This document shows positions 49,712 to 56,383 of a stretch of 64,000 bases of DNA, piece by piece; positions within the stretch are counted from its first letter, which is position 1; every line of letters starts with the position of its first letter. The translations under genes and the position numbers were made by a program. Under the pieces are notes generated by a model. The model searched no databases and was not told the DNA's origin. It saw only the letters and a list, made by a program, of their open reading frames with translations. Origin of the DNA: Humisphaera borealis (GTDB taxonomy: Bacteria; Planctomycetota; Phycisphaerae; Tepidisphaerales; Tepidisphaeraceae); assembly GCF_015169395.1 (NCBI RefSeq), contig NZ_CP063458.1, forward strand, positions 3,906,001 to 3,970,000. The letters are read 5' to 3'.

Positions 49712-51199
49712 CACGGCTTGGAAAGCACAACTGTCCGGCAATTTACCAATTCCAGCGTGAGCCATGACCTGGCACATCCTCATTTCACCAGAGTCGCTCG
49801 GCTTTGCTTGCGATCGCGGCTGATGGCGCGCATGCGGCGGCGTCACCCTCAGATCAGGGTGTGCGGGAACGTCGTGGCTTCAGGCCAGCTTCTTGCGTGC
49901 CCGCAGCCGGGCCTGACGCGCTCGTTCCAGCGAACGCTCTCGCTCGCGTTTGGCGATCACCGCCATCGCCTCCTGGATCGACATCTGGCCCCGGGCCACG
50001 CGGCCCAGCGCCGCCAGGGCGTAGACGCTGACGCGGTAGCCGCTCTGCACGTACATCATCAGCACGGCGATCACCGCGATGTACAGCTGCGTGGTGATCC
50101 CATTGCGGCTGGTGCTCAGCAGGTGGTCCATTCCCGCCCAGGTCTTGAGCCACTTGAAAAACAGCTCGATCTGCCAGCGCAGCCGGTAAACGGCGCCGAC
50201 GACGTGAGCCCCGACCGTCGCCGCGGGAAGATTGGTCAGCAGCCGCAGTGCCTGGGATTCGCCCGATCGGTCGGTGCTCTCGATGGTGATGCAGCGGAAC
50301 AGGCCCGCCGGCGCGTCGCGGCCGGGAAGTCTCACCACTTCCTCGGCGATCACGCCCGCCTCGACGTCCGCCGCCGACGGCGGCAGGGTCTGGACCACCG
50401 TCATCGCCGGTTGGTTGGATTTGATACGAACGACAAAGTCGCTGCCCTTGTCCAGGACGGCGCCGAGGAAGCCGAACTCGACGAAGTTGCGGTCCACGAC
50501 GTACAGCACGCCGGGCAGGAGGTCGGCGGCGAAGGCCGCGGCCTCCGAATGCCCGTCGTCGCCGCTGACGGTCAGCACGCGGGGAATCCAGTTGCCGGCG
50601 TCGAGCTGGACGTTGGCGCGGACCTGTCCCTGCACGCCGCCGTCGCGGTTCTTTTGGCGCATCGCCCAGGCCACATCGCACAGCGTGGTCATGTAAGTGC
50701 CGTCGGCGGCGATGATCTGCCGGGTGATCCCTTCGAGGCCGTCGGCGTCGCCGAGATTCGGGACACGTTGCTGCAGGTCGTCGATCAGCGGCACGAGCAG
50801 CTGAGGGTCGAACGCTGCAAGAGCGTCGGCGGTGGTCGAGCGTGCCAGCTTGTCGAGTCGCAGATCGCCCTGGAAGTCGCCGCAGTCTTCGATGCGTCGC
50901 AGCGATCGGGCCATGGGATCGAAGAACGACAGGAGCAGGCCTTTGACCAACTGGTCGCGGCCGAGGATGGTGTTGCCGTGAGCCGGCAGCGCCGCCAGAC
51001 GATGGAGATGTTCGTCGAGGAGATTCCCGGAGCGGCGCACGGCCAGACGTCGGTCCGACGGCGTCGGTTGCTGCTGCGGGGATGGACGACGGACCGCCAC
51101 GGGCGCGAACTATGCCACGCGGCATCAGAAAGCGCAAGAGCGAAATCTTGCGAATGTCACGGCGTCGAAATGCCGGACAGTTGTGCTTTCCAAGCCGTG
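49712..51199. mobile_element. IS4-family insertion element inside a host palindrome
   Basis: Exact 29-bp inverted repeats at 49712-49740 and 51171-51199 (core cacaactgtccggca, its reverse complement on the right) flank a transposase gene, total length about 1.49 kb. The outer part, cacggctt...aagccgtg, together with flanking ccgtga and aaggtgcgtcacac matches a repeat that is empty at about 48613-48655 (cacggctttccaagccgtg). So the element appears to sit in the centre of a dispersed host palindrome. No direct target duplication can be read because the target is itself palindromic. Confidence 0.85.
49880..51100 (-). CDS. IS4-family transposase
   Basis: 406 residues from GTG 51100. DDE catalytic core: Asp in IIAADGTYMTT near 150, Asp in YVVDRNFVEFG near 217 and Glu in YRLRWQIELFFKWLK near 323, which is the Y-x2-R-x3-E-x6-K signature of the IS4 family. 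The C-terminal part is basic and Ala/Arg-rich. Frame and core residues are intact, so the enzyme may be active. It nearly fills the element. Confidence 0.93.
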   Translation of the reverse strand: MAVRRPSPQQQPTPSDRRLAVRRSGNLLDEHLHRLAALPAHGNTILGRDQLVKGLLLSFFDPMARSLRRIEDCGDFQGDLRLDKLARSTTADALAAFDPQLLVPLIDDLQQRVPNLGDADGLEGITRQIIAADGTYMTTLCDVAWAMRQKNRDGGVQGQVRANVQLDAGNWIPRVLTVSGDDGHSEAAAFAADLLPGVLYVVDRNFVEFGFLGAVLDKGSDFVVRIKSNQPAMTVVQTLPPSAADVEAGVIAEEVVRLPGRDAPAGLFRCITIESTDRSGESQALRLLTNLPAATVGAHVVGAVYRLRWQIELFFKWLKTWAGMDHLLSTSRNGITTQLYIAVIAVLMMYVQSGYRVSVYALAALGRVARGQMSIQEAMAVIAKRERERSLERARQARLRARKKLA

Positions 51200-53125: not shown

Positions 53126-53878
53126 CGCGATACGCAGGCGGGAGAGCGGACGAGGGTCAGAAATAGAGACTACTTGCCGACGCTCGGATGCTGGGGGCAA
53201 CGCGATCCCGCAGGATACGCAGATGGAACAACCCTTTACCTGGCCTACACGTCGAATCCGACCGCGTTCACCGATCCCTTTGGCACAGAGAGTTGGACGG
53301 AGCTTGTTGCGTCTCAAAAATGGGGGCGAGAGTATGCAATGGGTAAGCTGACGGTCCATGACGGACAAGATCAAACGGGCGAAATCATAATCGACAACGC
53401 CGACGAAGTAGTAAAGAATCCTGATGTCGGACTGCATAGGCGCGGGATGATATTTATGGCGCGATGGAAGCCACCCAAAGGCGGAGATTGGTCCAATAAA
53501 GACGAAACCTGTAAGCCCTGCGAGAAGGTGGTATTCATACAAAAGATTCGTTGGGGAGGAGGCGACTGGCAATGGGACTGGGGTGACGACGACTATAGTC
53601 AGCATGGCGGGAAGTCGCGGAATCCGCTCACGGGATCTGACTTTGCACAAGTGTATGATGAACCAAACATTGCAGCGATTAGCTTGCTAGAATACTATTT
53701 CAGAGGTATGAGATTTTCTGCAATTACACATGCTAAGTGTGTCAAGGGGCGCGATATGGGAGTAATTTACGCGGAGATTCGATGGGGATTCTCTGTGGAC
53801 GCGAAAGGCGGATTGAAGTTGTCAGATATCTATATAGGGGGCGAAGATCGTTCGGACACGAGAGAGATCCCGAAATAG
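53126..53878 (+). pseudogene. Orphan Rhs tip with a distinct C-terminal domain
   Basis: The frame is open from 53126 but has no ATG start. It reads RNRDYLPTLGCWGQRDPAGY, then LAYTSNPTAFTDPFG, the conserved end of an Rhs core, followed by a unique C-terminal domain of about 190 residues. That domain has TCKPCEKVVFIQKIRWGGGDW (CxxC) and KCVKGRDMGVIYAEIRWGFSVDAK. Rhs C-terminal domains of this kind are often toxins in polymorphic toxin systems, but no nuclease or other catalytic signature is seen. The GC content drops here against the flanks. Orphan tips without a start are typical of Rhs loci that swap tips by recombination. Confidence 0.75.
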
Positions 53879-53889
53879 CGGAGACAGCA

Positions 53890-54336
53890 ATGGGCGTTCC
53901 CCTAGCATATTCGAACGAAAAGCGAAGAACGAAGCCGCTGAGCTGTTTGTCATGGATGCTAATATCTGTCTTATTTCTCCTGGCGTTATGCATATTGTTC
54001 GTTCCCCGCTATTTCAACTCTTCAAATACTGAAGAGAAGAAGCACGCCGTGGCGAACCTTTTCTTACGCCGGTGTGCTAATGCCATCGAGCGATTTCGAG
54101 TTGACGTTGGGCGATATCCAAACGAAGACGAAGGGCTATCGTCGCTGGTTGCTGCCCCGGCCGCAATTTCTTCACGCTGGCGTGGGCCGTATTTGGACGA
54201 ATTGCCTCGAGATCCATGGAGCGGATGCTATTCCTATAGAACGTCGCATAACGATGGAAGGATTTCAATTGTTTCCTATGGAGAAGACGGCGTACCATCT
54301 GCCGATGATCTAAAGTTCTTCGGGCCGTCACCGTAG
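53890..54336 (+). CDS. GspG-like protein, candidate partner/immunity of the Rhs tip
   Basis: 148 residues from ATG 53890, 11 bases after the Rhs tip. One membrane helix (CLSWMLISVLFLLALCILFV) is followed by a T2SSG-like domain: ANAIERFRVDVGRYPNEDEG, then WRGPYLDELPRDPWSGCYSY and SIVSYGEDGVPSADD, the conserved pattern of the type II major pseudopilin. It lacks the prepilin leader (no GFTLIEL). Gene spacing and low GC tie it to the Rhs tip, so an immunity or delivery role is possible; this is inference. A strong terminator follows. Confidence 0.65.
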   Translation: MGVPLAYSNEKRRTKPLSCLSWMLISVLFLLALCILFVPRYFNSSNTEEKKHAVANLFLRRCANAIERFRVDVGRYPNEDEGLSSLVAAPAAISSRWRGPYLDELPRDPWSGCYSYRTSHNDGRISIVSYGEDGVPSADDLKFFGPSP

Positions 54337-54378
54337 GGTACAAGTATCAGGTCAAACCGTAGTCCGCAAAAATACAAC

Positions 54379-54399
54379 AGGTGCTTCAGCACCTTTTTT
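54379..54399 (+). terminator. Rho-independent terminator of the Rhs-tip cassette
   Basis: Stem aggtgc (54379-54384) and gcacct (54389-54394) around ttca, directly followed by five T. It ends the cassette 43 bases after the GspG-like gene. Confidence 0.85.
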
Positions 54400-54427
54400 G
54401 CCGCACGATGGCGAGTGATGCTATAAT
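54398..54427 (+). promoter_or_regulatory. Predicted sigma-70-type promoter
   Basis: TTGCCG (54398-54403), an 18-base spacer and a perfect TATAAT (54422-54427) overlap the tail of the terminator. It would transcribe toward the broken Rhs gene. The -35 box matches at 4 of 6 positions. Confidence 0.4.
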
Positions 54428-54639
54428 TGCTCATAGGACACGATTGCGTTAACTGAAGATGAGTTCCCCGCGATTCCGAGGAGGATGCCCGTGGACGCGG
54501 ATGGGCCTCGAATTCGAAGCCTCGATGTCTTCTTGGCGGACATGCTCACCGATCTGCGATGGGCGCAGTGTACATTGCGGGTCAGGCATCACGTCCGGCA
54601 GCATATAGTCGATTCCGATCACCGGGCACAGGCAGCTGC
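54428..54639. other. Gap between Rhs cassette and Rhs remnant
   Basis: About 210 bases with no gene recognised. Codons of the Rhs frame can be read faintly from about 54600, so it may be eroded Rhs sequence. Confidence 0.4.
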
Positions 54640-56168
54640 CCCGACAACGGAACATCCGGCAGCCCCGACGACCGGCTCAGCCGGGTGAAATCGCTCAAAG
54701 ACGGTTCGACCGTGCTGGCGAGTTACACGTACCTGGGACTGTCATGATCATCCGTATCGACTATCCGCAGCCCGACGCCCGCCTGGACCTTTGGGGCGGC
54801 GTCAGCGGCACTTTCGCCGGACTGGACCGGTTCAACCGGATCATTGACCAGCGCTGGCAGAACGCGGTCGGCACGACGCCGGCGGACATCGACCGCTACA
54901 AGTACGGCTACGACCGGGACAGCAATCGCACCTGGAAGCAGAATACGGTGGGATCGACGCTGGACGAGTATTACACTTACGACCAGCTCAACCGATTGGC
55001 CACGATGGACCGAGGCACGTTGACAGGTTCGCCGCCCAGCGGGATCACCGGCACGCCGGTGAAGGAGCAGGACTGGACGCTGGATCCGACAGGCAACTGG
55101 CGTGGTTACGTCACCAAAGCCAGCGGCACGACGGACCTGAACCAGGCGAGAGCGAGCAACACGGTCAACCAGATCACCGGCATCACCGAGACGACGGGGC
55201 CGAGCTGGATCGACCCGGCGTACGACGCCGCGGGGAACACGACGACGTTCCCGCAGCCGACGCCGACGAGCAGCTTCACCGCGACCTACGACGCCTGGAA
55301 CCGGCTGAAGGACGTGAACGACGGAGCGAACGCGGTGGCGAAGTACGATTACGAAGCCCGAAACCGCCGGATCGTGAATAAGAGCTACACCGGCGGGACG
55401 CTGACCGAGACCCGCCACGCCTACTACACCACTAACTGGCAGAACATCGAGGAGCGGGTCGGAAGCAACACCACCGCCGACACGCAACACGTCTGGGGCA
55501 TCCGTTACATCGACGAACTGGTCTGCCGGGACGATGCAACGCCGGCCCGCATCTACGCATGCCAGGACGCCAACTTTAACCTCACCGCCCTCATCAGCAC
55601 CGCCGGCTCGGTCCTGCAACGCTTCGTCTACGAACCCTACGGCATCGACTCCGTCCGCGCTGCCAACTGGAGCACGACCACCGACGCCTACAACTGGACC
55701 GTCAGGTTCCAGAGTGGACGCGTCGACAACGGCACTGGGCTCTACTATTTCAGGAATAGAGACTATGTGTCCACATTGGGACGTTGGGGGCAGAGAGACT
55801 CTGGAGAATACATTGATGGATGCAACCTCTTCGCATTTGTTGAAAGCAATCCAGTCAATATGACTGACCCAGAGGGGTTACAGACGACGGCGAAAAATGC
55901 CGAAACGGCAAATGATGCCAAACCAGCGACACGACCTACGACATCGCCCGCAACGTCACCCGCAACACGACCTTCAACAAAGCCATCGACAAAGCCGGTG
56001 ACCGATCCCCATAAGATTGCTCCGCGACCAAGGTTTATTAGAAAACTGAAATTCGAAGGGGGAAAGATAAGGGGACATCACTCTTTTTCATTCTTGTCCG
56101 CGCACTGTCCTTGCCCCGCCGTTCCTCGCGTTACTCCCTCCCAAATTTCTCGATCGCCCAGTTCTTAA
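54640..56168 (+). pseudogene. 5'-truncated, frameshifted Rhs repeat protein
   Basis: The Rhs core is read first as RLSRVKSLKDGSTVLASYTY, ending LGLS at a TGA (about 54742), then continues in another frame as MIIRIDYPQPDARLDLWGG. A one-base loss at about 54741 explains the break. The core goes on with YD-repeats (YKYGYDRDSNRTWKQNTV, YDAWNRLKDVNDGANAVAKYDYEA) and the tip GLYYFRNRDYVSTLGRWGQRD, NLFAFVESNPVNMTDPEG. A Pro/Thr-rich linker follows and the last 35 codons run through a 158-bp duplication of the next gene's 3' end. The N-terminal two-thirds of a normal Rhs protein is missing. Confidence 0.85.
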
Positions 56169-56383
56169 ACGCACCCTGCACGTTCTTCCCTTCGCCGGGG
56201 AATCCGCCGTGCTGGACCATCCAACGATAAGGGGACATCACTCTTTTTCATTCTTGTCCGCGCACTGTCCTTGCCCCGCCGTTCCTCGCGTTACTCCCTC
56301 CCAAATTTCTCGATCGCCCAGTTCTTAAACGCACCCTGCACGTTCTTCCCTTCGCCGGGGAATCCGCCGTGCTGGACCATCCA
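56066..56383. repeat. 158-bp tandem direct duplication
   Basis: 56066-56223 and 56226-56383 are identical as read, separated by two bases (ac). The second copy contains the last 93 bases of the serine hydrolase gene; the first copy supplies the 3' end of the Rhs frame. The junction shows that the Rhs remnant and the hydrolase gene were joined by a local duplication. The shared start gataaggggacatcactc is typical of element ends. Confidence 0.95.

Follow-up and report, generated by a model that had tools for sequence, protein, structure and literature searches.

A gene pair of Humisphaera borealis (Bacteria; Planctomycetota; Phycisphaerae; Tepidisphaerales; Tepidisphaeraceae) joins a displaced Rhs tip, which continues into a C-terminal domain (CTD), to a membrane-anchored protein with a GspG-type pseudopilin domain. 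The pair is located in a stretch of 64,000 nucleotides (assembly GCF_015169395.1, contig NZ_CP063458.1, positions 3,906,001 to 3,970,000 of the forward strand), which is called the window here and to which all coordinates refer. The CTD belongs to a real domain family which is unnamed in the libraries searched and which is found only at Rhs tips. On balance, and with somewhat better than even confidence, we regard the locus as a displaced Rhs cassette of the toxin/immunity type, in which the CTD would be an envelope-acting toxin and its partner a membrane-bound immunity protein with a pseudopilin-like module.

The open frame with the displaced Rhs tip and the CTD extends from 53126 to 53878 on the plus strand. 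No ATG, GTG or TTG precedes the TTG at 53174, which itself is located inside the tip. Since there is no start codon, the window tip may not be expressed and this copy may be silent. The Rhs-associated core tip reported in an earlier note on this DNA, RNRDYLPTLGCWGQRDP...AFTDPFG, occupies 53159 to 53284 (plus strand) and is recognised by the TIGR03696 profile with an E value of 4.8e-7, its 30.2 bits lying slightly under the cutoff of 32.5. The CTD follows at 53285 to 53878 (plus strand, coding to 53875). With 197 residues and a GC content of 49.6% it agrees with the distinct low-GC domain of about 190 residues described before. The GC3 of the CTD is 0.52 as compared to 0.77-0.83 in neighbouring genes, and it is nearly equal to that of the partner gene (0.51). 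This common low GC3 suggests that CTD and partner gene were acquired as one unit. The claimed gap of 11 bases between the CTD frame and the partner gene was found as well and includes a Shine-Dalgarno-like GGAG (53880 to 53883, plus strand) 6 bases 5' of the partner ATG. So was the terminator behind the partner, an intrinsic-terminator-like hairpin with a T run (54379 to 54400, stem 54379-54394, plus strand).

The partner gene (53890 to 54336, plus strand) encodes a leaderless protein of 148 residues. Its T2SSG domain (residues 46-140; 54025 to 54309, plus strand) matches Pfam T2SSG at 3.1e-23 and contains the loop DPWSGCYSY...SYGEDGVPSADDL. PDB chains of GspG match the protein to 1.3e-15, and the NCBIfam GspG model gives 85.3 bits, below the equivalog cutoff of 88.85. 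Hydropathy reveals a single transmembrane helix (residues 20-38; 53947 to 54003, plus strand) preceded by EKRRTK, which would place the N-terminus inside and the domain outside the cytoplasmic membrane. A prepilin (type III) leader with Glu+5 was looked for in the protein and none was found. The earlier description of a membrane-anchored GspG-domain gene without prepilin leader is thereby borne out, and the GspG-likeness of the window partner is firmly established. Like GspG (TIGR01710, PF08334), it combines a transmembrane helix, a spine helix with GRYP, the DPW..Y motif and an S.G.DG loop; unlike GspG, it lacks the prepilin leader, lies outside a gsp operon and stays below the equivalog cutoff. 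The best other GspG-type match in the same genome has 33% identity to it. An AF2 model of the partner alone reached a pLDDT of 57, and only the order helix-helix-hairpin is visible. Foldseek returned nothing significant with this model; type IV pilins at ranks 3 and 6 (E 0.5 and 1.3) were not significant and were discounted as evidence for the fold. A tree grouping the window T2SSG domain with a leaderless protein (L026) showed long branches and was not used.

A single-sequence search with the window CTD gave nothing at E<=1e-3 in viral contigs, plasmids and 392 genomes of the phylum. The sole genome-contig match (L010), which reads an alternative frame of a kynureninase-like gene, was set aside as spurious. 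A permissive class-wide search yielded weak but real matches at three loci (L121, L122, L129), each at an Rhs tip and sharing 17 invariant columns with the window CTD. Most other weak matches in the class (L123-L128, L130-L137) were left out as apparent chance matches. Profile A1 detected the domain at 27 places, distributed over 15 of the 387 genomes searched in the class, profile A2 of 22 sequences added a few more, and L195 is a family member from another class of the phylum. Across the phylum, the profile search that the earlier note had proposed for this domain thus recovers a family; about 27 distinct members have complete ends, L195 counted. Every clear member is carried by an Rhs-type protein, and the tips of the relatives exceed the TIGR03696 cutoff. 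An intact Rhs protein of 2923 residues in the same genome (C1:3343035, L153; also L119 834-9602) bears a family CTD as well, followed by a membrane protein of 156 residues. In alignments A1 and A2 the family pattern reads C-x(0-2)-C..F.Q...W..D...D.PG...F...A.C..G...G..Y...WG. The CxxC noted previously is present in the window as CKPC; across the relatives only its second cysteine is invariant.

Searched against Pfam, the 22 CTDs gave no match, the ColM catalytic domain PF14859 included, and the CTD profile had none among PDB chains. Pfam and PDB returned nothing that would assign the CTD to a known non-toxic structural family, an assignment that the earlier note had named as evidence against its reading. 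Neither did Pfam, PADLOC, PHROG or PDB connect the CTD with a known toxin fold or with a catalytic motif. Such folds and motifs are common in Rhs CTDs and are not required. AF2 of the window CTD alone, without homologues, gave a pLDDT of 38 and a weak indication of a possibly beta-rich domain.

Downstream genes were compared between the CTD family and control Rhs tips from one family of the same class, where Rhs arrays extend up to 20 kb. Together with the loci collected before, the set comprised 137 unique complete tips, of which 26 belong to the CTD family. A gene for a small membrane protein follows 24 of the 25 family tips with data, within about 150 bases, as compared to 81 of 108 other Rhs tips. 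Multi-transmembrane proteins follow 19/25 and 32/108, respectively (Fisher p=5e-5). The p values of this comparison, the Mantel value below included, are optimistic, since transmembrane helices were called by plain hydropathy and some tips come from related genomes. By the same hydropathy calls, partners with one and with several transmembrane helices both occur within the family. Most family partners are small membrane proteins of other kinds, so the expectation that the CTD is always followed by a T2SSG-domain gene did not hold. No partner matched an immunity family profile of Pfam or NCBIfam. Spacing is short or overlapping in many pairs, and CTD similarity correlates with partner similarity (Mantel p=0.008). 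Close CTDs are followed by homologous partners (L155/L156/L157/L144; L158/L162), and partners differ between CTD clades. Partners following the CTD clades in this manner look like the second halves of cognate toxin/immunity pairs.

The same data bear on an explanation that we consider unlikely, namely that the CTD serves the Rhs/YD-repeat proteins of this phylum as a surface or structural domain and is not toxic, with membrane proteins as loosely linked neighbours. It would account for the missing match to known toxin families and for a domain that is cysteine-bearing and perhaps, on weak evidence, beta-rich, as are many surface domains; moreover, there has been hardly any study of what Rhs arrays do in these bacteria. 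However, loosely linked neighbours would not be expected to travel and diversify together with the CTD, as the Mantel correlation indicates, nor to be spaced so closely or to overlap in many pairs. In addition, a conserved tip with polymorphic exchange is what characterises toxin/immunity systems.

GspG-likeness recurs among the partners of this family. For a GspG profile, 104 T2SSG proteins from the phylum were combined with the window partner. When the ORFs downstream of the 137 tips were ranked with it, the top four were the window partner (4e-35, the protein itself being included in the profile), L145 (0.02), L158 (0.05) and L162 (0.12). Each of the four comes from the CTD family; the hypergeometric p is 0.001, or 0.006 if L158/L162 count as one. 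Aligned to GspG by hhalign, the L158/L162 partners gave p 4.6e-5, with a spine helix containing GRTPTS, and the L145 partner p 1.4e-3, with DAWNRP...SFGANG; other partners ranged from p 0.03 to 0.31. A two-loop motif was composed from the window, L145 and L158 before the L195 partner had been seen. It is present in 4 of 42 downstream ORFs of the family and in 0 of 195 outside it. Among the 925 ORFs of later loci it has only five matches, all of them family partners, L195 being new. The L195 partner consists of a transmembrane helix, RDAWGRPYGSKEVPFGAITFSLGPNGVSGDADDI and further transmembrane helices, and hhalign aligns it to GspG with a probability of 86% (p 5e-6). Altogether, a module of the DxWGxP...SxGx(N/D)G type is found in the window, L145, L158/L162 and L195 and in none of about 108 other Rhs tips. 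The motif is strict, finding 19 of 105 true T2SSG proteins, so that further eroded copies may escape it. Pfam T2SSG was not found in the L145, L158, L162 and L195 partners, so that the GspG-likeness of these four has moderate support, from hhalign and the motif only. In the CTD tree, the window and L145 fall into one loose clade and L158/L162 into a distant one (L195 is not in the tree). As its carriers are spread over distant clades, the GspG-like module would either be old in the CTD family or have been recruited more than once.

The earlier note had taken the GspG-like protein for an immunity or delivery partner. The first part stands, an exchanged cassette with a likely immunity function; pseudopilus delivery is unlikely, and so is any pseudopilus role of the partner, because it has no prepilin leader. 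Delivery may also be conceived more broadly, with the partner as a delivery, folding or tethering factor whose pseudopilin module helps Rhs through or onto the type II secretion machine. Polymorphic toxins are known to be exported by type II secretion (PMC3482391), the module derives from GspG, and the L121 relative is an orphan tip with a signal peptide of its own. Against this, all five GspG-like partners (window, L145, L158, L162, L195) were searched for a prepilin leader and none has one, so pseudopilus processing is not expected; in most relatives, moreover, the partners are unrelated multi-transmembrane proteins, which a common export route would not predict. We therefore hold such a role to be rather improbable. 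An accidental pairing, in which a decayed Rhs tip landed beside a stray GspG paralogue, could draw on the missing start codon, on the truncated Rhs remnant and transposase-like ORF close by and on leaderless T2SSG genes known without Rhs, but is most unlikely in view of the 11-base gap with GGAG, the matched GC3, the two intact frames and the fact that GspG-like partners recur within this CTD family.

If the locus is a toxin/immunity-type cassette, the CTD would act as a toxin, either on the envelope or on the periplasmic side of the inner membrane. This site is proposed because the partners are integral or membrane-anchored and the cysteines of the CTD are conserved. The downstream gene would encode the cognate immunity protein, and the site of CTD binding would lie outside the cytoplasmic membrane. 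The window protein would expose its GspG-like pseudopilin module on a non-cleavable transmembrane helix, and at least three further lineages in the family appear to carry a pseudopilin-like module in more eroded form. Toxicity, site of action, binding and expression are inferred. A long shot within the same frame is that the target of the CTD in rival cells is the pseudopilus or a set of pseudopilin-like proteins in the envelope. The immunity proteins would then present the toxin's own target as a decoy, in the form of a leaderless, membrane-fixed pseudopilin module. We know of no earlier toxin aimed at type II secretion and of no earlier pseudopilin antidote.

Polymorphic Rhs cassettes are already known as a kind. 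The window locus shares with Rhs CT/immunity cassettes and orphan Rhs tips (PMC3150448, PMC3967940, PMC3482391) the conserved tip, the variable low-GC CTD, the downstream partner and a displaced copy without start. It differs from them in a CTD family and a partner scaffold without Pfam toxin or immunity match, and in a function that is predicted. Orphan Rhs tips can be silent, as the window copy may be; expression has been described for an orphan Rhs toxin that arose in evolved Salmonella (PMC3967940). A further likeness exists to colicin M, itself a bacteriocin and not an Rhs tip. One colicin M toxin family is countered by Cmi (one transmembrane helix and a periplasmic YebF module), by PmiB-like proteins with one transmembrane helix and by BmiA/PmiA with three or four (PMC5821083). 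In both systems, a single domain family is matched by unrelated partners, either with one transmembrane helix and a periplasmic domain or with multiple helices. In contrast to colicin M, the window CTD lacks PF14859 and the partner module is GspG-like rather than YebF-like. In the literature searched, a pseudopilin scaffold as toxin partner was not found.

The CTD family adds an unnamed member to the Rhs polymorphic proteins of the Planctomycetota, in which contact-dependent competition has hardly been studied. Should immunity be the function of the partners, a pseudopilin scaffold was recruited as an antidote, and the family would join colicin M as a further case of envelope-acting toxins whose immunity proteins are unrelated, some having one helix and others several. 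The earlier suggestion that a pseudopilin domain is put to unfamiliar use here is supported by GspG-like partners recurring with this CTD family and not with other tips. About ten leaderless T2SSG proteins without Rhs were found among some hundred T2SSG loci of the phylum (L053, L058, L084, L090, L092, L096-L098, L100, L108, L026), in settings such as fusions, signal-peptide proteins and a possible lipoprotein. Since leaderless T2SSG occurs there without Rhs, the domain appears to be used outside pseudopili more widely. With regard to the independence of CTD and GspG-like gene, which the earlier note had named as evidence against its reading, both do occur apart; among Rhs tips, however, GspG-like partners recur with the CTD family only.

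Several further observations concern the surroundings of the cassette and Rhs tips elsewhere. A second, 5'-truncated Rhs remnant with its own tip (TIGR03696) lies at 54609 to 56168 on the plus strand, and a fragment near 54740, upstream and in a different frame, suggests a frameshift. A near-perfect tandem duplication of 160 bp (window 56066-56383) covers the end of this remnant together with the 3' end of a minus-strand, beta-lactamase-like gene, cutting off the CTD of the remnant. About 2 kb upstream of the cassette, the minus strand carries a transposase-like ORF (49880-51100), which we take to be of the IS4 type. In L121 (1294-2262), the orphan Rhs tip opens with the signal-peptide-like MSNIKRLSIFALFIIVVFSSFIASA, as if the tip alone were exported. 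Dense arrays of Rhs tips occur in one family of the class (L236, L237, L250-L258 in G468, and L227-L246), and one draft genome of 4.4 Mb has 63 Rhs tips. At several orphan tips of such dense arrays, an upstream peptide MVAINEILL.ECTGEECGG is repeated.
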